Below, one piece after another: positions 45,287 through 62,548 of a stretch of 64,000 nt of DNA; the stretch's first letter is position 1, and each line of letters opens with the position of its first letter. The position numbers were made by a program, and so were the translations under genes. The stretch is from Rudaea sp. 3F27F6 (GTDB lineage: Bacteria > Pseudomonadota > Gammaproteobacteria > Xanthomonadales > Rhodanobacteraceae). Under the pieces are notes generated by a model, which ran no database searches, was not told where the DNA came from, and saw only the letters and a list, made by a program, of their open reading frames with translations. The stretch is taken from positions 744,001-808,000 of the forward strand of contig NZ_SCNG01000002.1 in NCBI RefSeq assembly GCF_005503555.1, given 5' to 3'.

Positions 45287-45442
45287 CATGCGCCAGTATC
45301 CGCGTGTGTTTTTAGAAAGCTATGATATATAACGACTTACGGAATACTAATGGAGCTAGTTTGGCTCATGGACACATCTATGGACACACCAAATGGACGT
45401 CCATAACGCAAAAAAATGGGTTAACTTACAAAGTGTGTCCAC
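45287..45442 (+). repeat. Left copy of the island-end module
   Basis: It begins with CATGCGCCAGTATCCGCGT, carries TGGACACA at 45369 and 45381, the palindrome TGGACGTCCA at 45394-45403, and the inverted octamer TGTGTCCA at 45434-45441. It matches 55253-55410; 82 of the first 117 bases are identical by hand count without gaps. Bases 45443-45588 hold nothing I recognise. Confidence 0.75.
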
Positions 45443-50687: not shown

Positions 50688-50739
50688 GCCGACGATGACC
50701 CTCCACCTTGTCGACACGGCGGTTGCTTGTTTCAGCGAT

Positions 50740-50755
50740 TTCGATAATAATCGAA
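50740..50755 (+). promoter_or_regulatory. Palindromic operator TTCGAT-N4-ATCGAA directly before arsR
   Basis: The perfect 6-bp inverted repeat ends 2 bases before the arsR ATG, covering the place of the ribosome-binding site. It suggests a second autorepression point inside the pstS-arsR operon. Confidence 0.6.
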
Positions 50756-50757
50756 CT

Positions 50758-51141
50758 ATGGAAACTAAAGCCGCCCTCAAAGCCCTGGCCGCCCTCGCGC
50801 AGGAAACGCGCCTGGGCATTTTTCGCTACCTCGTCGAGAAGGGGCCAGACGGCGCGTTCGTCGGCTCCATCGCCGAAGACCTGTCGCTCGCGGCGGCCAC
50901 CTTGTCCTTCCACTTGAAGGAATTGACGCACGCCGAGTTGTTGGACAGCACGCAAGAAGGTCGCTTCATCCGCTACACGGCCAATCTCGCCGTGGTCCAA
51001 AACGTCGTCAACTTCCTCACCGAAAACTGCTGCGGCGGTGATGCCTCCAAGTGCGCGCCCGTATGCGCGCCGGCCCCGGCCAAGCGGGTGGCGAAGAAGG
51101 CAGCCCCACCCGCCCGCAGGACCGCGTCCGCGCGACGGTGA
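50758..51141 (+). CDS. arsR: ArsR family arsenite-responsive repressor
   Basis: The 127-residue winged-helix repressor has LAQETRLGIFRYLVEKGPDG and the recognition helix DLSLAAATLSFHLKELTHAE. It lacks the classical ELCVC metal site in that helix; instead it has a C-terminal cluster Cys91, Cys92, Cys99 and Cys103 (ENCCGGDASKCAPVC), the arrangement of the Acidithiobacillus-type ArsR that binds As(III) near the C-terminus. An Ala/Lys/Arg-rich tail follows. It should release its palindromic operators on arsenite binding. arsC starts 5 bases after its stop. Confidence 0.9.
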   Translation: METKAALKALAALAQETRLGIFRYLVEKGPDGAFVGSIAEDLSLAAATLSFHLKELTHAELLDSTQEGRFIRYTANLAVVQNVVNFLTENCCGGDASKCAPVCAPAPAKRVAKKAAPPARRTASARR

Positions 51142-51145
51142 GGCG

Positions 51146-51655
51146 ATGGCCATCCACGTTCTTTTTCTCTGCACGGGCAACTCGGCCCGCAGCATCCTGA
51201 GCGAGGCGGTGTTGAACCACCTGGGGTCGCCGCGCTTCGTGGCTTACAGCGGCGGCAGCAAGCCGGCCGGTCGCGTCCACCCGCAGTCGCTCGCCGTGCT
51301 CACCGCCGCCGGCATCCCGACGGCAGGGTTGCGCAGCAAGAACTTCGACGAGTTTGCTGGCGACAACGCCCCGCCCCTTGACCTCGTCATCACCCTTTGC
51401 GACAGCGCGCAGCTCGACCCGTGCCCCGTGTTCCTGGGCGACTTCGTGCGCGCGCATTGGGGCCTGCCCGATCCGGCCGGCGTGCGCGGCACGCCCGAGG
51501 AAATCGCCGCGGCCTTTGAGCAAACCCTGGCCATCATCACCGCGCGCACAGGCGCGCTGGTGGCGTTGCCAGTGGAGCAATTCGACCGCCCCGCATTGGC
51601 AGCAGCTTTGGCGAAAATCGCCGACGAGCACGCGCCCACACCGGTGTCGGCGTGA
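51146..51655 (+). CDS. arsC: Arsenate reductase, low-molecular-weight phosphatase type
   Basis: The 169-residue protein reduces arsenate to arsenite. The CX5R loop is CTGNSAR (Cys9 to Arg15), and Cys85 and Cys93 in ITLCDSAQLDPCPVF are placed as in thioredoxin-coupled ArsC, forming the thiol relay; GLPDPAG supplies the acid. It has no N-terminal extension from ATG 51146. The stop overlaps the acr3 GTG start by 4 bases, linking production of reductase and exporter. Confidence 0.93.
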   Translation: MAIHVLFLCTGNSARSILSEAVLNHLGSPRFVAYSGGSKPAGRVHPQSLAVLTAAGIPTAGLRSKNFDEFAGDNAPPLDLVITLCDSAQLDPCPVFLGDFVRAHWGLPDPAGVRGTPEEIAAAFEQTLAIITARTGALVALPVEQFDRPALAAALAKIADEHAPTPVSA

Positions 51656-52734
51656 ACGCGACCGTCGTTCAGTCGCCGCAGTCGCTGGCCTCACGCATGG
51701 GCGTGTTCGAGCGCTACCTGAGCGTGTGGGTGCTGCTGTGCATCGTGCTCGGCACGCTGCTTGGCCGTTTCGTGCCCGACGTGTTTGCCACGCTCGCCGC
51801 GACCGAAGTGGCGCACGTGAACTTGCCGGTGGCCGTGCTCATCTGGGTGATGATCATCCCGATGCTGCTCAAGATTGACTTCGGCGCGCTCGGCGACGTG
51901 CGCGCGCAATGGCGCGGCATCGGCGTGACCGTGTTCGTGAACTGGGCGGTCAAGCCGTTCTCGATGGCGCTGCTCGGCTACATCTTCATCCGGCACGTGT
52001 TCGCCGCCTACCTGCCCGCCGACCAAGCCGACGCCTACATCGCCGGACTCGTGCTGCTGGCCGCCGCCCCGTGCACTGCGATGGTGTTCGTGTGGAGCAA
52101 CCTGTGCGGGGGCGAGCCCAAGTTCACCTTGAGCCAAGTGGCGCTCAACGACGCCATCATGGTTGTTGCCTTCGCGCCGCTGGTCGCACTTCTTCTTGGC
52201 CTTTCTTCCATCACCGTGCCGTGGGCCACACTCCTGTTGTCGGTGGGCCTCTACATCCTCGTTCCGGTGATCGTGGCTGCTACCCTGCGACGCGTCGTGC
52301 TTCGGCAGGGCGGCGAGCGAGCGCTCAGCGCGCTGCTGGCACGCTTGCAGCCAGCATCGCTCGTCGCGTTGCTCCTGATGCTCGTGCTCCTGTTCGGTTT
52401 CCAAGGTCGGCAAATCCTGGAGCAACCGGCCATCATCGCCATGCTCGCGGTGCCGATCCTCATCCAGGTCTACTTCAACGCCGGGTTGGCCTACTGGCTC
52501 AACCGCCGCCTGGGCGTGTCCCATTGCGTGGCCGGTCCCTCGGCCCTCATCGGCGCTAGCAACTTTTTCGAGCTGGCCGTCGCCACGGCGGTGAGCGTGT
52601 TCGGCGTTCACTCGGGCGCGGCGCTGGCGACCGTGGTCGGCGTGCTCGTCGAGGTGCCGGTGATGCTCTCGGTGGTGCGCATCGTGAATGGCACGCGACG
52701 GTGGTATGACGCCGGCGCGCGCACCAGCTCGTGA
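51652..52734 (+). CDS. acr3: Arsenite efflux transporter Acr3
   Basis: The 360-residue membrane protein of the bile/arsenite/riboflavin superfamily has ten predicted helices. The essential cysteine of Acr3 is Cys141 in [15 protein letters not shown]; other family marks are [16 protein letters not shown] and [14 protein letters not shown]. It exports arsenite made by ArsC. It starts at GTG 51652, overlapping arsC. Confidence 0.95.
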
Positions 52735-52762
52735 TTCGATTTTTCTTCCAACGGAAACCATC

Positions 52763-53767
52763 ATGACGATTCGTGTGGGCATTAACGGCTTCGGCCGCAT
52801 GGGGCGCTTGACCTTGCGCGCGGCGTGGGGCTCGCCCGATTTTGCGTTTGTCCAGGTCAACGATCCAGCGGGTGACGCGGCCACGCTCGCCCACTTACTC
52901 AATTTCGACTCCATCCACGGGCGCTGGGCGCATGACGCGCGCGCCGACGGCGACGCGCTGGTCATCGACGGCCAACGCATCGCGCTCTCGCGCAACAAGG
53001 CCATCGAGGATACCGACTGGTCCAAGTGCGACGTCGTCATCGAGGCCTCGGGCAAGTTCCGCAAGAAGGCCCTCTTGCAGCCTTACCTCGACCAGGGCGT
53101 GCCGCGCGTCGTGGTGACCGCCCCCGTGAAAGAGGCCGGCGTGCTCGACACCGTGTTGGGCGTCAACGATCACCGCTTCGACCCGGCCATCCACCGCATC
53201 GTCACCGCCGCTTCATGCACCACGAACTGCCTGGCACCGGTGGTCAAGGTCATCCATGAAAACTTGAAGATTCGCCACGGCAGCATGACGACGATTCACA
53301 GCCTGACCAACACACAGGTCATCGTCGACGCGCCCCACAAGGACCTGCGCCGCGCGCGCGCGTGCGGTTCCAGCCTCATCCCGACGACGACCGGATCGGC
53401 CACGGCCATCGCCGAAATCTTCCCCGAGCTCAAGGGCCGCTTGAACGGGCACGCCGTGCGCGTGCCGCTGACCAACGCGTCGCTTACCGATTGCGTCTTC
53501 GAGGTCGAGCGCGCCACCAGCGTCGAGGAAGTCAACGGCCTGCTCAAGGCCGCGGCCGAAGGCGAGCTCAAGGGGATCCTCGGCTACGAGGAGCGCCCAT
53601 TGGTCTCCATCGACTTCAGAGGAGACCCGCGCTCGGGCATCGTCGACGCGCTCTCGACCCTGGTGGTCAACGGCACGCACGTAAAAATCTACGCGTGGTA
53701 TGACAACGAGTGGGGCTACGTGAATCGGACGGCCGAGCTGGTCCGCATGGTGGGCAACGCGAAGTAA
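52763..53767 (+). CDS. Glyceraldehyde-3-phosphate dehydrogenase of the ars operon
   Basis: The 334-residue GAPDH has the NAD fold [17 protein letters not shown], catalytic Cys152 in [11 protein letters not shown] and His179 in [10 protein letters not shown]. Next to arsJ such enzymes use arsenate in place of phosphate to make 1-arseno-3-phosphoglycerate, which ArsJ then exports; this pair is known from other bacteria. The location in the ars operon, and not with pgk or glycolysis genes, supports this. Start 52763 has GGAA upstream; it follows acr3 by 28 bases. Confidence 0.92.
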
Positions 53768-53772
53768 GGCTC

Positions 53773-55014
53773 ATGACCGCGCGCTTCTCGCCCGACATGC
53801 GCCAATACCTGCTCATCACGGGCAACTACTGGGCGTTCACCCTGACTGACGGCGCGCTGCGCATGCTCGTGGTGCTCCACTTCCACGAGCTCGGGTATTC
53901 GCCCCTTCAGGTCGCGATGCTGTTTTTGTTCTACGAAATCTTTGGCGTCATCACCAACCTGGTCGGCGGTTGGCTCGGCGCACACATCGGGTTGAACCGC
54001 ACCATGAACGTGGGCCTGCTGCTCCAGGTTGTGGCGCTCGGCGCACTCGCTGTGCCCCACGTTTGGTTGACCGTGCCTTGGGTGATGGCCGCGCAGGCGT
54101 TGTCGGGCATTGCCAAAGACCTCAACAAGATGAGCGCCAAGAGCAGCATCAAGCTGCTGGTGCCCGCGGGCCAGGAGGGCTCGCTCTACCGCTGGGTGGC
54201 CGCGCTCACCGGTTCGAAGAACGCACTCAAGGGCGTGGGCTTTTTCTTAGGGGGAGGCCTGCTGACCGTGCTCGGATTTCGAACCGCAGTCCTCGCCATG
54301 GCCGCGGTGTTGGCGGTGGTCGGCGTGTCGAGCCTCCTCACTTTGACGCGCGACCTGGGCAAGGCGAAGGCCAAGCCAAAGTTCAAGGACATCTTCTCAA
54401 AGAGCCGAGCGATCAACGTGCTGTCGGCGGCGCGCCTCTTTTTGTTCGGCGCGCGCGATGTCTGGTTCGTCGTGGCGTTGCCCGTGTTTCTCTACGACAC
54501 CCTTGGCTGGGATTTTTGGGGTGTGGGCGCGTTCCTCGCCGCGTGGGTCATCGGCTACGGCGTCGTCCAGGCCTCGGCACCCGCGCTGACCGGTCGCCGC
54601 ACCGGTAGGCTGCCGGATGGCCGCTCTGCGTTCCGATGGGCGGTGGTCTTGGCCTTCGCACCGGCCGTGATGGCCGTGCTGATCGCGCACGGAGTCGCGA
54701 TCACAGCCACGTTGGTGGGTGGCCTGGCTGTTTTCGGAACATTGTTTGCGATTAACTCCTCGCTGCACAGCTATCTCATCGTCAGCTACGCGCAAACCGA
54801 TGGGGTGTCGCTCGACGTCGGCTTTTACTATATGGCCAACGCCATGGGGCGCTTGCTTGGCACCGTGCTCTCCGGCTTGGTGTTTCAAGCCGCCGGGCTG
54901 TGGGCGTGCCTGGCGTGGTCGGCCGGCTTCGTAGCCTTGGCCGCGTTGCTATCGCTGGCGCTACCGCGCCACTTGGTGCCAGCCACCGAGGGCGTTGGCG
55001 AATCGGCCGAATAG
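53773..55014 (+). CDS. arsJ: ArsJ, organoarsenical (1-arseno-3-phosphoglycerate) efflux MFS protein
   Basis: The 413-residue MFS transporter has the ArsJ pattern: YLLITGNYWAFTLTDGALRM, KDLNKMSAKSSIKLLVP, and LFLFGARDVWFVVALPVF. It pairs with the GAPDH gene 5 bases upstream to give an arsenate-specific export route that does not need reduction. It is the last gene of the operon; no clear terminator follows before the repeat region. Confidence 0.94.
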   Translation: MTARFSPDMRQYLLITGNYWAFTLTDGALRMLVVLHFHELGYSPLQVAMLFLFYEIFGVITNLVGGWLGAHIGLNRTMNVGLLLQVVALGALAVPHVWLTVPWVMAAQALSGIAKDLNKMSAKSSIKLLVPAGQEGSLYRWVAALTGSKNALKGVGFFLGGGLLTVLGFRTAVLAMAAVLAVVGVSSLLTLTRDLGKAKAKPKFKDIFSKSRAINVLSAARLFLFGARDVWFVVALPVFLYDTLGWDFWGVGAFLAAWVIGYGVVQASAPALTGRRTGRLPDGRSAFRWAVVLAFAPAVMAVLIAHGVAITATLVGGLAVFGTLFAINSSLHSYLIVSYAQTDGVSLDVGFYYMANAMGRLLGTVLSGLVFQAAGLWACLAWSAGFVALAALLSLALPRHLVPATEGVGESAE

Positions 55015-55049: not shown

Positions 55050-55100
55050 TGGACACACGTTGCCGGGCGGTCATTGCGGCATGGACACAATATGGACACA
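55050..55100 (+). repeat. Cluster of three TGGACACA octamers
   Basis: TGGACACA occurs at 55050, 55082 and 55093, all in the same direction, in the gene-free stretch after arsJ. The same octamer recurs at 55335 and 55347 and, at the left end, at 45369 and 45381. The rest of 55101-55252 shows a TATAAT at 55166-55171 without a -35, and no gene. Confidence 0.7.
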
Positions 55101-55252
55101 CAAAGGTTTGACAGGGAAAGTGATTGATTTTCTCGTTAGTCCGCTAGATCAAGAACTTGTGGGCATATAATTAGTTCTCCGCATGGGCGAAAATGGATAC
55201 GGCTTTTCTTGAATTATCAAGAGCTTGCAGAAGATAAGCGGCACTCGGCGTC

Positions 55253-55410
55253 CATGCGCCAGTATCCGCGTTGCTTTTACCAACAACATTATAATCAACG
55301 AGTTACGGAACGCCGTTCGCCGCCATTTCTTCCATGGACACACTCATGGACACATCAAATGGACGTCCAAATCGCAAGAACGGCGAAAACGCTCTGCACA
55401 GTGTGTCCAC
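55253..55410 (+). repeat. Right copy of the island-end module
   Basis: It starts with the same CATGCGCCAGTATCCGCGT as the left copy, includes TGGACACA at 55335 and 55347, the palindrome TGGACGTCCA at 55360-55369 and the inverted TGTGTCCA at 55402-55409. The offset to the left copy is 9,966 bases through the palindrome and 9,968 at the final octamer. Confidence 0.75.
55367..55379. other. Right 13-bp core repeat (candidate attR)
   Basis: CCAAATCGCAAGA, identical to 45262-45274, directly abuts the palindrome of the right module. A degenerate copy, CCATAACGCAAAA, is at the equivalent place of the left module (45401-45413). Confidence 0.5.
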
Positions 55411-55921: not shown

Positions 55922-56401
55922 TTAATCGGAGGGCCGGACGTCTGAATCATTCAAAGCCAGCCAGTCGTGCCAGGACGACCACGACAGTGAGGCCTCGACG
56001 TTTATGTGGCCAGCGACCGGTCGAACGGCAAGGCGTCGCGCCGCCTCCAGGTCTTGAGGGAAAAACGCGTGGTCCAGTTTCGAAAGAAACCAGTCGCCCT
56101 GAAGAGCGCCACAGGCCTCGCAATGGTTGGCCAGGTATGACGTGTCCGCGGTTTCGGATCGGCCCATCTTCATCCAGGGAGCGATGGCCGAGATGCCGGT
56201 GGCGGCCTCGGCATTGATGGACTCGATGTAGCTGAGAAGGGTTCGCTCTTCCCGGCGCTCCCATTCCCCGTCATCGAGCTGCTCATCGTATCCGTCGACC
56301 AGCACACAGCTCACCCGAGTTGTTCCAATGCATTTCCAGCAGGTCGTTCGGCCTGTCAGAACCCAGAATGCTTCGGCGCGAAGTCTGTCAGCCACGGGCA
56401 T
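55922..56401 (-). CDS. Cysteine-pair (zinc-ribbon-like) protein of unknown function
   Basis: The 159-residue protein has CWKC near residues 22-25 and HCEACGALQGDWFLS near 93-107, two pairs that could hold one zinc ion, in a form (SYLANHCEACGALQGD) shared by unassigned bacterial proteins. No ribosome-binding site is obvious and no earlier in-frame start exists before a stop. It is 93 bases downstream of the GIY-YIG gene on the same strand and could be the fourth gene of that operon. Confidence 0.6.
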   Translation of the reverse strand: MPVADRLRAEAFWVLTGRTTCWKCIGTTRVSCVLVDGYDEQLDDGEWERREERTLLSYIESINAEAATGISAIAPWMKMGRSETADTSYLANHCEACGALQGDWFLSKLDHAFFPQDLEAARRLAVRPVAGHINVEASLSWSSWHDWLALNDSDVRPSD

Positions 56402-56494: not shown

Positions 56495-57673
56495 TCAGAG
56501 GCTCACAAGCCTTGCAGTCTGAGGATCATAGACCATGCCCGTAATCGACCCATCGACGATTCTGGCAACAGCCTCGTCAATGACGGGCAACGGCACGAGG
56601 AACCATTCCCGCGGCTTCACAGGTCGACCGAATCGGTCCTCAATCGTCAGGTCGAGCAGGACCGGGGCAAACAAACGATGAAAGAGATTTTCCAGCTTTG
56701 TCCGATTGAGGTTCGACAGCTTGTAGGTCGCTACCACATCGACGTCGGCCAACAGGTAAGTGGCTTCGTTGGCCGCATTGGCGATACGGGTCTCGACCTT
56801 GCCACCGGTGACGCCGATCTTGTGGATGAGCTCGCGGTGCTCGACAACAAACGGGTTAGCCGACCGACTTCGCAGCACATAGATGGTCCCATTCTCCACG
56901 TCGTCGCGTTCCATGACATCACGGAACAAGGGCCCGGCTCCGGGAGCGGTCAGACGCCGGCCACTTTCGTCCTTGTAAAGCGCGCGCTGCAACGAGCGAA
57001 GCAACAGGTTGCTCTCGGTGCCGTTTCCATAGACGACGCGAAGACGTGCGTCCGTCTCCCCGTTGGGTGTCCGAAACGATTCGCCAATGTCGGCGACATA
57101 GACGACCTGCCCACCGAGGATGAAAAAGTCGCCCTCCTCGACGCTGGCGTTGCGGCCAAAGCGCAACGCTCGACGCTCACCCTTTTTCAACTCCGTTTCG
57201 GCTTTTTCGAACAGAGGCGCGAACCGTTCGAAGTCCTTGCAAGGCGTGCGATTCGCGATGTCTTCCGCAGCTTTGCGATCTTCATAAGAACGGACGTGCC
57301 GCAACTGAGTGATGTCGTCTTCCGGAGCGATGCCGAGTTCGGCAAGCAGTGCTTGATCGTCCATCCCTTCAAGCTCTTCGACGTCCACGACCGCCGGCTT
57401 GGCCCCCAGCAGGCCCTGCGTATCCAAGGAAGCCAATAGTGCGTGTGCCGAAGGAATCGCGCGCAGGCGATCTAGGCGAACCGCGTAAAGCCGCTCGAAG
57501 ATGTCGCGATCTTCGCCGTGCTCGGGCACACGTCCATGGGTCTCGACGAAGCGCAGGATGTCCTCGAACCCGGCAATCAAGCGCTCTTCCTGCGCGGTGT
57601 GCGCGCCGTCCTTTAGGGGAGTGACCGATACGCCCAGTTCGGCCAAGATCGCTTCGTCGTCCATCTCATTCAT
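56495..57673 (-). CDS. GIY-YIG nuclease family protein (T5orf172/MUG113-like)
   Basis: The 392-residue protein has two N-terminal copies of MDD-A-LLAELG (near residues 4-14 and 101-112), a middle domain (FFILGGQVVYVADIGESF, then NGTESNLLLRSLQRALYKDE), and a C-terminal GIY-YIG nuclease: GTIYVLRS (about 262-270), HKIGVTGGKVETRI (about 281-295), the metal-binding Glu in LENLFHRLFAP (about 324) and EWFLVPLPVIDEA. It should cut DNA. ATG 57673 overlaps the helicase stop by 8 bases, so it is coupled to the helicase and methyltransferase genes. Confidence 0.88.
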   Translation of the reverse strand: MNEMDDEAILAELGVSVTPLKDGAHTAQEERLIAGFEDILRFVETHGRVPEHGEDRDIFERLYAVRLDRLRAIPSAHALLASLDTQGLLGAKPAVVDVEELEGMDDQALLAELGIAPEDDITQLRHVRSYEDRKAAEDIANRTPCKDFERFAPLFEKAETELKKGERRALRFGRNASVEEGDFFILGGQVVYVADIGESFRTPNGETDARLRVVYGNGTESNLLLRSLQRALYKDESGRRLTAPGAGPLFRDVMERDDVENGTIYVLRSRSANPFVVEHRELIHKIGVTGGKVETRIANAANEATYLLADVDVVATYKLSNLNRTKLENLFHRLFAPVLLDLTIEDRFGRPVKPREWFLVPLPVIDEAVARIVDGSITGMVYDPQTARLVSL

Positions 57674-59777
57674 TGGACGCACCTGCAGCTTGAGCGCGCT
57701 GCGTCGCAATGTGGCGGGCCAACGCGGCCACGCCTTCCGCCATTTTTTTCTCCCAGGCGTCGGCTGAGTTAATGTCAGGAGCGCGCCCTCGCTCTTGCTT
57801 GAACAGCACGGCGCGCTTGGCCAAATCGCGGGCTTCTTCCACCGACAGCGACACGCGCTTTGCCGCGATGCTGGCCTGGACTTGACGAAGGACGCGCTCA
57901 TCCATTGCCCGAGCTAGAACCGCATAGGCGGCGTCGAAAGGATTGACGCGATCGACCAAGTCAATGTCGAGGTCCCTGACGTTGACAAACTTCCGGACGC
58001 CATCGATGAGCGACGTGTTGCCCTGCTCGCCCTTGGCGTCTGCTTCCGCCAGTTTCAACTTGGCTTGCTGAGTCAGGTTCAATGCGGCAACGGCGTGCTG
58101 GCGGACGGCCTCTTGATCCTCGTCGCTCAGCTGCGGGTAGTGCTCCCGGACGATCTTGCCCATCTGAACCTGTGTGAGTTCTTCGGGCAACGTATTTTCT
58201 TTGTCGAACAGCCCGCGCTCCAGCGCGTTCTTGTTCTGGACAAAGGCAGTGAGCACTTCGTTGAGATCCTCCCGGCAGATACGAACGGCCTCCGGAGACT
58301 TGGGCATCACAAGGCCCTTGATCTCGACATGAACCTGTCCTGTTGCGGAGTTAACACCGACGTTGCCCTTACCTTCCTGATAGCCTTCGTCGCCGTAATC
58401 GAAACCTTCTTTCGGCCCGTTGTCCTTCGGAGTGAACTCGAACCTAGGTGCCAGAACCTGCTCCATCAACAAGCTGGCTGCGATGGCTTTCAGCGTGTCG
58501 TTGACGGCCTGAACGACCTCGTTCTGCTCGGCTGCGGGCTCGGCAATCAAGTTGGTGAACCGTGCCTTTTCCTTGCCCATTGCATCCCGTGTGGCGCGTC
58601 CAATGATCTGGACAATCTCCGTGAGGCTGCTTCGGTAGCCAATGGTCAGTGCATGCTCGCACCAGATCCAGTCAAACCCTTCCTTCGCCATGCCGAGAGC
58701 GATAATGACGTCGACGTTGTCACGGTCGTTGTTTTGCGCGGGGCCCTTGAGTGCTGCGAGCACTTTGGAACGTTTGCCGGCGTCACTGTCGTCGACGAGA
58801 TCCGCGACCTTCGCCACACCGCCCCCGAACTCCGGCTTTAGCTGAATAAGGTGAAAGCCAGTTTTTTCATCGACGCCGGTCCAGCTCCCCAGATGACTCA
58901 TGATTTCTTCGACTTCTTTGTGCTTGTCTTTCAGGCTTTCGCGCGCATTGACGTTGGGAATGTGGACGATGGTCTTCTGCCGGGGGTCCAGCACCTTCAT
59001 CACCGCGTCGACGTAGCGGCCTGTATAGAAAAAGTAACCGATTTCAAGGGACTTCAAATATGAGTAGCCATTTAGTTGTTCGTAGTAAGTGTAGGTCACT
59101 GTCTCGAACCGCGCTTCGTCGTCAGGTGAAAGCACCGCCTCCGCATCGCCTCGAAAATACGAACCCGTCATCGCAACGATGTGACTTTTGCCCCTTTCGA
59201 TTAGTAGCTTGAGCTGACTCCCGAGCTTGTTCTCCGGGTTGCTACTGACGTGGTGGAATTCGTCTATAGCGACCAACCGGTTGTCGAAGGCTTCTATGCC
59301 GAACTCATCTACCGCAAAACGAAAGGTTGCGTGCGTGCACACGATAAACAAATCATCGCTGGCCAGAAACGCACCCATCGCCTTTACCTTCGAGGAGGAT
59401 ACCCTTCCGTTGTCGTCCCCAGGCGCGTTACAGAGGTTCCATTCCGGACGCACGGTCCAATCGCCCCAGAAACCCTGAGCGCTCAACTTCTCATCGGCAA
59501 AGCTGCCACCGATAGACTTTTCTGGAACGACAATGATCGCTTGCTTCAATCCTTGGTTGCGGACCTTGTCCAGTGCGATGAACATCAGCGCACGCGACTT
59601 GCCGGAAGCCGGCGGCGACTTGATTAGTAGATATTGCTCGCCTCTTTTCGCATAGGCCCGCTCCTGCATCGGACGCATGCCGAGCGCGTTTACCTTGTTT
59701 GAGGCCCCCGTCCTGGCTGTCGCAATCGAGACAGAGGGCACGGTGAACCGGTTGGTGGGATTCCCTGCCTCGTTCAT
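57666..59777 (-). CDS. SF2 DEAD/DEAH-type helicase of an R-M-like operon
   Basis: The 703-residue ATPase has Walker A SPPASGKS (54-61), motif II DEFH (172-175), motif III MTGSYF (203-208) and motif VI QIIGRATRD near 395, followed by a long C-terminal domain with no known fold. The DEFH box and GSY motif place it near restriction-type translocases and not RNA helicases. It overlaps the methyltransferase gene by 4 bases (ATGA) and the nuclease gene by 8. It probably moves DNA or recognises unmodified DNA for the GIY-YIG partner. Confidence 0.9.
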   Translation of the reverse strand: MNEAGNPTNRFTVPSVSIATARTGASNKVNALGMRPMQERAYAKRGEQYLLIKSPPASGKSRALMFIALDKVRNQGLKQAIIVVPEKSIGGSFADEKLSAQGFWGDWTVRPEWNLCNAPGDDNGRVSSSKVKAMGAFLASDDLFIVCTHATFRFAVDEFGIEAFDNRLVAIDEFHHVSSNPENKLGSQLKLLIERGKSHIVAMTGSYFRGDAEAVLSPDDEARFETVTYTYYEQLNGYSYLKSLEIGYFFYTGRYVDAVMKVLDPRQKTIVHIPNVNARESLKDKHKEVEEIMSHLGSWTGVDEKTGFHLIQLKPEFGGGVAKVADLVDDSDAGKRSKVLAALKGPAQNNDRDNVDVIIALGMAKEGFDWIWCEHALTIGYRSSLTEIVQIIGRATRDAMGKEKARFTNLIAEPAAEQNEVVQAVNDTLKAIAASLLMEQVLAPRFEFTPKDNGPKEGFDYGDEGYQEGKGNVGVNSATGQVHVEIKGLVMPKSPEAVRICREDLNEVLTAFVQNKNALERGLFDKENTLPEELTQVQMGKIVREHYPQLSDEDQEAVRQHAVAALNLTQQAKLKLAEADAKGEQGNTSLIDGVRKFVNVRDLDIDLVDRVNPFDAAYAVLARAMDERVLRQVQASIAAKRVSLSVEEARDLAKRAVLFKQERGRAPDINSADAWEKKMAEGVAALARHIATQRAQAAGASNE

Positions 59778-62548
59778 TTGCTTTTCCTCGCCTTGTTAAT
59801 CTTGACCTGACCCGCACTCATCTTGGTGTAGAGGTCGAACAGCTTCTCAAGCCGTTCCGTGTCGTTTCGAAATTTCCGTCCGATGTAGATCCGCTCCAAT
59901 ATCTCGTCGTTTTGCTCATGCGCACGACGCAACTGTTCCGGCATATGCTGCGGGTCGTAGAGATCGGCGATTGTGTCGGGAAACTGTGCCTCCCTGGCTA
60001 AAAGGATTTCCTCGGCGCATTGGGTCAGATCGGCTCTATTTTGATCCGTGAGCGTTGGAACCGGAAACGTGTTCCATCCCAGTGTGTTCGAGTATGAGAA
60101 ATCTGTTCGCATTCGCACACAAACTGCTCCGATCCACACCCAGTGGAGGCGCGAAGCAATCAATGCCAGATTCCAAAGTGGTTCATCCAACAATACAAAA
60201 TTTTTATTGCTTACTATGCTTCCTCGGGCTAGCAAACCCACCGGAAGGTAAGGTCTGTTCTCCGAACTGACGCCAGGGACAACTATCACCACTTCCGAAC
60301 CTCGTTGCCGAATTTCGCCAAACCTGTAAGGAACCTTCGCGAGGTTTTTTGTTGTTGCGCGGTCTGACTTCAACCGTGTTGCCCTCACCAAACCAAATCG
60401 CCCCGCCATCCAAGGATTGGACGACGCTTCGATAAACTCGTTGTCTTCCACCCACAAGCATCGCCGCTCAGTTCCCTGGATGTATTCCTGAGATCCGACG
60501 AAGGGCCGAATAAATTTTGCCGGCACGCCGTATCGATGCGCTTCCTCAACGTCTTTCTGTTCTAGCAACAGTCCTCCGCCATCGTTTGGCATATTGCCGA
60601 AGGTCATCTCGCCAATCCCACTCAGCTGCAAAGTGCGAGGGCCAACGATAATGTCTGGGCCCGGCACGAGATAAGCATTGATGTGCTCGGCGGCCTTGAT
60701 GCTTACTTCGCCGTCGATCGACTCACTAAAAATCCTCCGAGCGCTTCCGGGATTCACCGCCAAACCTACGATGACAACCGTCACGCCCGCATTTTTGCTG
60801 GCAAGATTCGCCCACTTAAATGAGGTGTGCGCGAAGGAGATGGAGTGACCGGTTGAAAAAATAAGCGTCCAAAGTGTTTCAACCTGTCTGCCTTGACAGA
60901 TGGAGTTTGTGGCTACGAATGCCGAACCAGCTTGTGTATTGACACCATAGTCAGCCGCCTTCATGAACCAACCGGACACGTAATCGAGCGACTTCCAGTT
61001 TTTGGCGCGCCCTTCAAAAATCGACCCAAGGTCACTTTTCTGCTCCTCGGTCTGCCATTGGCTACCTCGATACGGAGGATTTCCACAAATATACGTTTCT
61101 CCGCCCTCGTTCTCAAAATCGATCTCCAACTGGTCGAGTGGCGTTTTGAAAAGGTCGTTACTCAGCACCCGAACGCCTACGCCTGTTGGCGGACAGATAG
61201 CCAGCCAATCAAGTTGGAGAGCATTGCCGCACGTGATCCAATTTTGAGCGTCAAGAGGCAATACTTCAGCCAATGCTTCTTTTTGGCCACGGTAGAGCAC
61301 GTCGCATTGAAACTCCGCGATGATAAGGGCCAAACGAGCTATCTCAGCCGGAAAATCTCGGAGCTCTATGCCGCGAAAGTTTGTAAGCGGTATCTCAGAC
61401 GGCAAGTTGACTTCCACGCGTCGTCGATTGATCTCCGCCTCGATCGCCCGCATTTGTTTGTAGGCGATTACCAAGAAGTTTCCACTGCCGCAGGCGGGGT
61501 CGAACACGCGAATGCGTGCCATGCGACGGCGCAGATTGATCAGTTTCACCTTGTTATCCCCAGCCGATTCCAGCTGGTCGCGCAGATCATCAAGGAAGAG
61601 TGGGTTAAGAACCTTCAAGATATTCGGCACGCTCGTATAGTGCATGCCCAGTTCGCCGCGTTCTTCATCCTCGGCGACGGCCTGGATCATCGACCCAAAG
61701 ATGTCCGGGTTAATCTCCTTCCAGTTCAGCTCGCCCGCACGCAATAGATAGGAACGCCCGGTTCGCGTGAAACGTGGGACGTCGGTGCTGCCAGAGAATA
61801 GTCCACCGTTGACGTAGGGAAACGGGTCAGCCCATCGGGGCACGCGAGCCTTATCGCGATCTTCCTTTCTGCTATTCATCGCACGAAAGATCGTTTCCAA
61901 TACCTCATGCGTATTGGACCCGTCCCGCTCTGTCATTTTCTCCACGGTTGCACTGAAGAGATTCAGCCCGTCGAAAATTTCGGTGTCTTCAGCGAAGAAA
62001 CAAAATACTAACCGCGCCATGAAGTGGTTCATATCGTGGCGTCGTTCGGCCTTCGCCCAATCTGGGTTGTGTTGCTGAAGCTCGACATACAGCTTGTTTA
62101 GACGGCTGGTTGCCCGAATGTCTATCGGGTTTTCTTTGATTTCTCGGACGGTTGTGATCCCTGCGAGGGGCAGGAAAAACCCGAAGTGGTCCGGGAACTC
62201 CACAAAACCGCAGGAAATGGGCTCGCCACTAACCAGATCCTCAGCTTCCAAGGTCTCACCGTCAGTTGCTAGGACAAACTTCGCCTTCGCCGAGAGCGTC
62301 CTGGGACTGTTCTTCAGTGCTCTAAGTGTGCGCCCAACCTCGCCCACCGCACACGTTGCCAGGTGAATGTTGTTGCGCTGCAAGACTCCGCCCAGAACGT
62401 CCGACGCGTTTGAGTCTCCCTTGCGCAAGCGCTTGAGCGTGGTCTCCTTGTTTCCGAAGGCTGCCAGGAAGGCGTAAGGAAACTCTGCCCCATCGAAGGG
62501 CTGCGCTGCCAGCTCAGTTATTGCTGCCTCAATCTCAACCGCGTTCAT
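59774..62548 (-). CDS. MmeI-like adenine-specific DNA methyltransferase
   Basis: The 924-residue protein has the MmeI-type layout: N-terminal domain (FPYAFLAAFGNKETTLKRLR), helical spacer (MARLVFCFFAEDTEIFDGL), methyltransferase with LGMHYTSVPNILKVLNPLFL, motif I FDPACGSGNFLVIAY (about residue 350) and motif IV GNPPYRGS (about 489), then a target-recognition region and C-terminal helices. NPPY indicates N6-adenine methylation. The N-terminal region shows no PD-(D/E)xK nuclease site such as MmeI has, so cleavage is probably done by the GIY-YIG protein of the same operon. Confidence 0.9.
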   Translation of the reverse strand: MNAVEIEAAITELAAQPFDGAEFPYAFLAAFGNKETTLKRLRKGDSNASDVLGGVLQRNNIHLATCAVGEVGRTLRALKNSPRTLSAKAKFVLATDGETLEAEDLVSGEPISCGFVEFPDHFGFFLPLAGITTVREIKENPIDIRATSRLNKLYVELQQHNPDWAKAERRHDMNHFMARLVFCFFAEDTEIFDGLNLFSATVEKMTERDGSNTHEVLETIFRAMNSRKEDRDKARVPRWADPFPYVNGGLFSGSTDVPRFTRTGRSYLLRAGELNWKEINPDIFGSMIQAVAEDEERGELGMHYTSVPNILKVLNPLFLDDLRDQLESAGDNKVKLINLRRRMARIRVFDPACGSGNFLVIAYKQMRAIEAEINRRRVEVNLPSEIPLTNFRGIELRDFPAEIARLALIIAEFQCDVLYRGQKEALAEVLPLDAQNWITCGNALQLDWLAICPPTGVGVRVLSNDLFKTPLDQLEIDFENEGGETYICGNPPYRGSQWQTEEQKSDLGSIFEGRAKNWKSLDYVSGWFMKAADYGVNTQAGSAFVATNSICQGRQVETLWTLIFSTGHSISFAHTSFKWANLASKNAGVTVVIVGLAVNPGSARRIFSESIDGEVSIKAAEHINAYLVPGPDIIVGPRTLQLSGIGEMTFGNMPNDGGGLLLEQKDVEEAHRYGVPAKFIRPFVGSQEYIQGTERRCLWVEDNEFIEASSNPWMAGRFGLVRATRLKSDRATTKNLAKVPYRFGEIRQRGSEVVIVVPGVSSENRPYLPVGLLARGSIVSNKNFVLLDEPLWNLALIASRLHWVWIGAVCVRMRTDFSYSNTLGWNTFPVPTLTDQNRADLTQCAEEILLAREAQFPDTIADLYDPQHMPEQLRRAHEQNDEILERIYIGRKFRNDTERLEKLFDLYTKMSAGQVKINKARKSK

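Follow-up and report, generated by a model that had tools for sequence, protein, structure and literature searches.

The closest described counterpart of the system treated here is the dnmA(yeeA)-yeeB-yeeC locus of Bacillus subtilis, in which an MmeI-like methyltransferase forming N6-methyladenine (m6A) at GACGAG and lacking an endonuclease motif precedes first a helicase and then a T5orf172/GIY-YIG protein, and the passages of the two papers used here state that this gene order is common in other bacteria as well (PMC7261158, PMC9973331). The same passages credit Morgan 2009 with noting that MmeI homologues are flanked by such genes and with the proposal of a Type I-like mechanism, and cite Makarova 2011 for defence islands. 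In Vibrio crassostreae, deletion of dnmA and yeeB homologues increased the sensitivity to some phages, according to a study cited in the part of PMC9973331 that was available. The three genes encoded on the minus strand from position 62548 to 56495 of the window, by which we mean the entire analysed stretch of 64,000 nucleotides from Rudaea sp. 3F27F6, are an intact member of this kind, as judged from a comparison in which the B. subtilis proteins were represented by their published descriptions only. They probably encode the three subunits of an intact restriction-modification system that depends on ATP, belongs to the DnmA-YeeB-YeeC kind and acts like a split Type I or Type ISP enzyme.

A survey of open reading frames (ORFs) establishes three intact overlapping genes without internal stops, in the order methyltransferase, helicase, GIY-YIG protein. 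For the last gene, the longest ORF starts at 57901, and the alignment of its relatives puts the start at 57673, which yields 392 amino acids (aa) and gene overlaps of 4 and 8 bases. This agrees with an earlier sequence-only reading of the locus, which had seen one operon of three genes overlapping by 4-8 bases, and its further claims of an MmeI-like methyltransferase without a PD-(D/E)xK site and of a separate GIY-YIG nuclease and DEFH-type ATPase are borne out by the domain matches and residues described below. Its statement that no characterised system had this composition does not hold, because the same genes in the same order have been published as DnmA-YeeB-YeeC, with a Type I-like mechanism already suggested in the passages cited above; no further title or abstract opening that names the trio came up among the papers listed in the literature searches. 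The features of the locus are as follows.

59774 to 62548, minus strand: DnmA/YeeA-like gamma-type N6-adenine DNA methyltransferase, 924 aa, first gene of the operon (Pfam, profile match to 5hr4, DPACG and NPP motifs)
62039 to 62548, minus strand: N-terminal region of the methyltransferase, residues 1-170 (Pfam MmeI_N, 1-158), nuclease residues lost, candidate docking platform
60050 to 60661, minus strand: target recognition domain (TRD), residues 630-833 of the methyltransferase
57666 to 59777, minus strand: YeeB-like superfamily 2 (SF2) helicase/translocase, 703 aa, with PPASGKS, DEFHH and QIIGRATRD (Pfam, conserved motifs)
58443 to 59690, minus strand: SF2 motor core, helicase residues 30-445 (Foldseek with the whole model, whose confidence is low)
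56495 to 57673, minus strand: YeeC-like GIY-YIG protein, 392 aa, with an N-terminal helical region, a middle part containing a small beta-barrel and a C-terminal GIY-YIG domain (Pfam, structure model)
56498 to 56896, minus strand: GIY-YIG (T5orf172/MUG113) domain, residues 260-392, with invariant Y265, K285-x-G287, R296 and E328

With DnmA-YeeB-YeeC, the trio shares the MmeI-like methyltransferase without PD-ExK, the SF2 helicase as the next gene and the T5orf172/GIY-YIG protein as the one after it, whereas the B. subtilis YeeB and YeeC reportedly lack C-terminal stretches and their locus showed no restriction, as far as the passages used of PMC9973331 and PMC7261158 tell. The methyltransferase has the five-domain layout, the methylase motifs and the TRD specificity code in common with MmeI and the Type IIL enzymes, but the PD-(D/E)xK site that serves as a membership criterion of that class has been lost, and motor and nuclease-like protein are encoded by separate genes. 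By analogy with the Type ISP enzymes LlaGI and LlaBIII, as described in the part of PMC3874165 used here, the trio would combine a translocase, a gamma-methyltransferase, a single TRD and an asymmetric site; it consists of three polypeptides, however, where Type ISP enzymes are defined by one, and contains a GIY-YIG instead of an Mrr-like nuclease. The Type I systems (HsdR/M/S) would resemble it in a motor and a recognition function common to both activities and in an operon that admits extra genes like prrC (same source), but the trio has no HsdS, its TRD is fused to the methyltransferase and its nuclease is set apart from the motor, which places it outside the definition of Type I. An assignment to DISARM or BREX was rejected, since a scan of six ORFs at the trio gave no match to DrmB, DrmC/PLD, PglZ or BrxC, and the methyltransferase reaches 82.8 bits with the PADLOC model DrmMI versus 937 bits with the Type IIG model, the PglX models being likewise weaker than the latter. 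The sequence-only reading had separated the locus from Type I, DISARM and BREX on the same grounds.

The three proteins and the lost nuclease site

All five MmeI domains are present in the methyltransferase (Pfam PF20464/20465/20473/20466/20467; E values of 3e-34 for the N-terminal, 1.5e-115 for the methyltransferase and 2e-77 for the TRD family), and its family profile matches the MmeI structure 5hr4 with an E value of 1.4e-246. The nuclease residues of MmeI are D70, E80 and K82, as given in the passages used of PMC4833311; they align with G54, A64 and C66 of the window protein, and the MmeI nuclease site is therefore absent. For counts of residues, 105 loci yielded open-frame genes with both ends for 85 methyltransferases, 102 helicases and 100 GIY-YIG proteins. 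Once short sequences (four methyltransferases, one GIY-YIG protein) had been removed and the window copy added, these numbers became 82, 103 and 100, respectively; the locus sets overlap, with two pairs of identical helicases among the 102. None of the 82 trio methyltransferases carries the PD-ExK triad or even a single MmeI residue at its own position. The second triad position, E in MmeI, is occupied by K in 11 of them, and a loose D-x8-12-[ED]xK pattern occurs in one, elsewhere than at the MmeI site. In contrast, D-x9-E-x-K is found in all six strong MmeI-like matches (E 1e-80 or better; 17 weaker ones with E 1e-26 to 1e-35 were left out) that lie outside trio loci in 299 genomes of the phylum, a difference with a Fisher P of 1.8e-9, which is only indicative because the sequences are related. 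No helicase or GIY-YIG match was found in the stretches retrieved around these six genes, the loci L208 and L210 providing just 179 and 289 bases downstream; five of their genomes contain no helicase match anywhere, and the remaining one (G150) has a trio elsewhere.

The methylase site itself is intact, with D350, A352, C353, G354, G356, N490 and P491 kept in 82/82 and P492 in 80/82 proteins. PADLOC labels the methyltransferase REase_MTase_IIG (PDLC03598) over nearly its full length. This Type IIG model thus fits a protein without a nuclease site at 937 bits, and defence annotation may mislabel the trio.

The helicase matches the Pfam family DEAD with an E value of 8.7e-6, exactly at the cut-off of 26 bits, and ResIII and Helicase_C more weakly. 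G59-K60-S61, D172-E173-F174-H175, G393-R394 and R397 are kept in all 103 helicases. Foldseek searches with the structure model returned RadD, MrfA and XPB and, lower down, HsdR of EcoR124I (E 1e-7), which shows an SF2 core in the predicted fold and nothing more specific; PDB sequence searches with the protein and with the helicase profile gave no convincing relative.

The GIY-YIG protein matches MUG113 (6.5e-12) and T5orf172 (3e-9) in Pfam, and Y265, K285, G287, R296 and E328 are kept in 100 of 100 proteins, H332 in 99. Its model has a predicted local distance difference test value (pLDDT) of 85 and a predicted template modelling score of 0.41, and a PDB sequence search with the family profile gave no convincing relative. 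The small beta-barrel at residues of about 180-240 resembles EF-P/eIF5A domains weakly in Foldseek (E 1.9e-3 and worse). A search of defence profiles, which the sequence-only reading had proposed, shows the trio as such to be no named subtype among the matching models of PADLOC 2.0 and NCBIfam: the helicase obtained only marginal PADLOC matches to PbeA and Cas3 (E 2.6e-4 and worse), the GIY-YIG protein obtained none, and nothing in NCBIfam exceeded the cut-offs for any of the three proteins.

Conservation, specificity and the insertion slot

Counting the own genome, the helicase occurs in 23 of 398 sampled genomes of the phylum and in 9 of 197 of the family; within the genus, the own genome is the only one of 16 to carry it. 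It is also present in 9 of 398 genomes of the class to which a Fictibacillus carrier belongs (G591, locus L106; G591 and G592 were the previously known carriers), and in 264 of 72,556 plasmid records, 148 of which cover at least 80% of the protein. The MmeI_Mtase family was found in one of 14 control genomes, that of B. subtilis, and the GIY-YIG protein had no match in 50,697 phage records. A scan of genome contigs produced at least 560 helicase relatives, of which the best 80 were used, so that the counts from this set lean to close relatives. A GIY-YIG match on the same strand follows the helicase in 23 of 23 loci of the phylum sample (own copy included), within 400 bases in all 77 testable loci of the best 80 (the other three are truncated at contig ends), and downstream in 16 of another 17 loci, of which L190 and L192 belong to genomes represented among the best 80; in L044 it begins about 620 bases past the helicase match. 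The three-gene arrangement therefore goes beyond chance, which also answers the demand of the sequence-only reading that the co-occurrence of the genes be mapped. The gene order is kept in Pseudomonadota as well as in the class of the Fictibacillus genome.

The TRD is the least conserved region of the methyltransferase, with a median identity to the window protein of 46% (80 loci) versus 55-75% in the other eight regions compared. In MmeI, the residue pairs 751/773, 774/810 and 806/808 read base pairs 3, 4 and 6, according to the passages used of PMC4833311, and the corresponding columns of the 82 trio TRDs rank 2, 6 and 1 among 18,147 TRD column pairs by corrected mutual information. The pair 806/808 is E-R in 32, K-D in 27, R-D in 21 and another combination in two of these TRDs. 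The window protein carries G759/N781, K782/S818 and R814/D816 at the three pairs. The published code assigns C at position 4 to K774/S810 and G at position 6 to K-D, while the G-N pair at position 3 lies outside the code as given in those passages (PMC4833311); our own extension of the K-D rule, with R in place of K, suggests that R-D reads G at position 6. As K-S and R-D stand at the specificity pairs, a C-m6A-G core is predicted, and the motif of the window enzyme is expected to be the asymmetric NNN-C-m6A-G.

Pairwise distances were compared among 76 loci, the window included, that share at least 70% identity with the window copy in the helicase core; the bootstrap was drawn from related rows. 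Distances of methyltransferase residues 1-250 correlate with those of the helicase with r 0.79 (bootstrap median; 0.71-0.85), those of residues 260-615 with r 0.38 (0.27-0.46), those of windows from 481 to 840, which include the TRD, with r of about 0, and those of C-terminal windows with 0.24-0.26. Physical linkage does not explain the high value for residues 1-250, because the N-terminal part is farther from the helicase gene than the TRD. The pattern fits a fixed chassis, composed of dead nuclease plus spacer, helicase and nuclease, on which specificity modules can be exchanged; the N-terminal region of the methyltransferase thereby becomes a candidate docking surface.

A second variable site lies between the first two genes. 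Among the best 80 of at least 560 relatives, the methyltransferase is located upstream of the helicase in the 78 observable loci; the two matches are less than 150 bases apart in 34 of these, and in the other 44 (e.g. L059, L064, L084 and L127) they are separated by 191-2951 bases. In 30 of the 44 gapped loci, a single co-directional ORF fills 60% or more of the gap, and 48 of 63 non-overlapping gap ORFs picked by length are co-directional, although the choice by length hid co-directional ORFs in ten loci (L065 and L078, for instance, have ones of 353 and 357 aa). Pfam searches with 44 co-directional gap ORFs of at least 75 aa gave, among the matches listed (25 of 32 families), Schlafen AlbA_2 plus HATPase_c_4 in eight, the YhcG/DUF1016 nuclease in six and GmrSD_N in two, and single matches to RhuM, PDDEXK_4, Fic, YafQ, CcdA, HepT-like, PIN and other families. 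PLD-like genes, recognised by eye, and toxin-antitoxin genes are also found in the slot, and in the locus L047/L212 it is occupied by an AAA/TOPRIM-like ORF (by eye). The window copy contains no insert. A comparable guest is prrC, the gene of an anticodon nuclease, in the Type I operon EcoprrI, as described in the part of PMC3874165 used. It is possible, if rather doubtful, that the dead MmeI nuclease domain serves as a coupling platform passing DNA to the motor-cutter pair, that the TRD half is a swappable cassette on a fixed chassis, and that the slot receives interchangeable second-line effectors (Schlafen/AlbA, YhcG, GmrS-like, toxin-antitoxin or Fic proteins) in the manner of PrrC.

Genomic surroundings

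The guanine plus cytosine content at the trio is low, with 0.597 (56-58 kb), 0.557 (58-60 kb) and 0.526 (60-62 kb), whereas every other 2-kb block reaches at least 0.60. To the right of the window, the same contig (L180, L182 and L183) encodes an S24 peptidase resembling UmuD, a TrwC relaxase and a TrwB/TraG coupling protein. ParA-like, GmrSD and Abi_C genes follow further on, together with a gene that matches an integrase-type arm-binding domain at 27.4 bits (the cut-off being 27) and adjoins a mutS-like gene recognised by eye. The octamer TGGACACA or its complement occurs only at 45369-45434 and 55050-55402 of the window and at 15988-16070 of L183, as searched in the window, L180, L182, L183 and L184. 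These clusters look like the ends of two tandem integrated elements beside the mutS-like gene, and the trio would then lie at the left end of a putative mobile element of roughly 60 kb with further defence genes aboard. No empty site of this element was found, and the neighbouring umuC DNA gave matches of at most 48 bases, in three of the other 15 genomes of the genus.

Two neighbours were considered as components and discarded: the 159-aa ORF at 55922-56401 as a fourth subunit, which has no match in the other retrieved loci, although distant relatives occur on plasmids, and UmuC, with matches in only three of the other retrieved loci. At L180:2445-3347, a 300-aa ORF with a weak DUF2971 match separates the umuD-like gene from umuC, whose long frame it overlaps. 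Positions 50695-55014 of the window contain consecutive ArsR-like and phosphatase-like genes (both by eye) and genes for an SBF-family transporter, GAPDH and an MFS protein, a row that resembles an arsenic resistance operon.

Mode of action and alternatives

We infer that the three proteins form a complex which translocates on and cleaves DNA in defence. The methyltransferase would read an asymmetric site of about 6 bp via its MmeI-type TRD and, as shown by others for B. subtilis DnmA and expected here by homology, set m6A on one strand. At an unmethylated site it would recruit or license the helicase, perhaps via the dead nuclease and spacer region at its N-terminus; the helicase, with its intact SF2 motifs, would translocate along the DNA with ATP, and the GIY-YIG protein may cut when the motor stalls or meets another one coming from a head-to-head site. 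Such a head-to-head rule would account for the protection of newly replicated host DNA by methylation of one strand, an argument made for the MmeI family and the Type ISP enzymes in the part of PMC3874165 used. The division of modification, translocation and cutting among three proteins, as anticipated by the sequence-only reading, fits this scheme. That the motor and nuclease residues do not vary is an argument for most intact copies being functional, and the neighbouring relaxase, coupling-protein, GmrSD and Abi_C genes count in favour of a restriction system, for which a defence role is plausible.

Several points weigh against this assignment. The main doubt is functional, as one relative is inert in the laboratory and the window copy is known from its sequence: in B. 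subtilis, deletions had no effect on plasmid transformation or on three phages, and the authors regard the locus as a relic in the passages used (PMC7261158, PMC9973331). The literature search found no report that any GIY-YIG member of this family cuts DNA; the canonical YIG is replaced by KIG here, and the structure model of the helicase is of low quality, with a pLDDT of 68. What the distance correlation reveals is a common history of the sequences, not contact. Frameshifted and contig-cut copies were excluded from the residue counts, which favours intact sites, and departures from the arrangement do occur: L047/L212 (G512) has a methyltransferase and a helicase but has lost the GIY-YIG gene, with no match within 14 kb; at G508:C32:6514-8431 (L050, L052) the helicase is matched in two separate frames or pieces; and among 43 IMG/VR loci the GIY-YIG gene is adjacent in 39 and past the contig edge in one, but displaced in one and absent in two.

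An unlikely alternative, albeit the one that survives best, is a defence without site-specific restriction, in which methylation is a self mark while helicase and nuclease jointly act on replication intermediates or stop replication, after the fashion of BREX or DISARM-like schemes. It would accord with the absence of any depletion of the DnmA motif in phage genomes, with the statement of the authors, in the passages used, that any restriction must differ from canonical restriction-modification (PMC9973331), and with the weaker similarity of the methyltransferase to the DrmMI and PglX models. The scan of the six ORFs, however, yielded no match to PglZ, BrxC, DrmB or PLD, and the trio has a GIY-YIG protein of its own, whose catalytic residues are invariant.

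Slightly less likely still is the explanation proposed for B. subtilis, namely that a functional orphan methyltransferase marks DNA for gene regulation while helicase and nuclease are relics. DnmA of that organism does influence promoters, and no restriction was seen from its locus, according to the passages used (PMC7261158, PMC9973331), but relics would not keep invariant active-site residues in 103/103 helicases and 100/100 nuclease-like proteins with open frames, nor does the retention of the gene order across Pseudomonadota and the class of the Fictibacillus genome speak for them, and the diversification of the TRD at its specificity residues is unlike a fixed regulatory mark. That an ordinary Type IIG/IIL enzyme merely stands beside unrelated helicase and nuclease genes, as the high and nearly full-length PADLOC score might suggest, is extremely improbable in view of the missing nuclease triad and the conserved adjacency of the three genes.

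The three-subunit restriction-modification system proposed here belongs to a family which is widespread yet little studied; the detailed studies found concern one host and, in the passages used, judged the system inert, and the only matching defence library calls its methyltransferase Type IIG. To the published description, the present analysis adds the contrast in the nuclease triad (0/82 versus 6/6), the covariation of the specificity pairs, the shared history of the N-terminal region and the helicase, and the slot between methyltransferase and helicase genes. The covariation would offer a direct route to predicting parts of the methylation motifs of members of the family.

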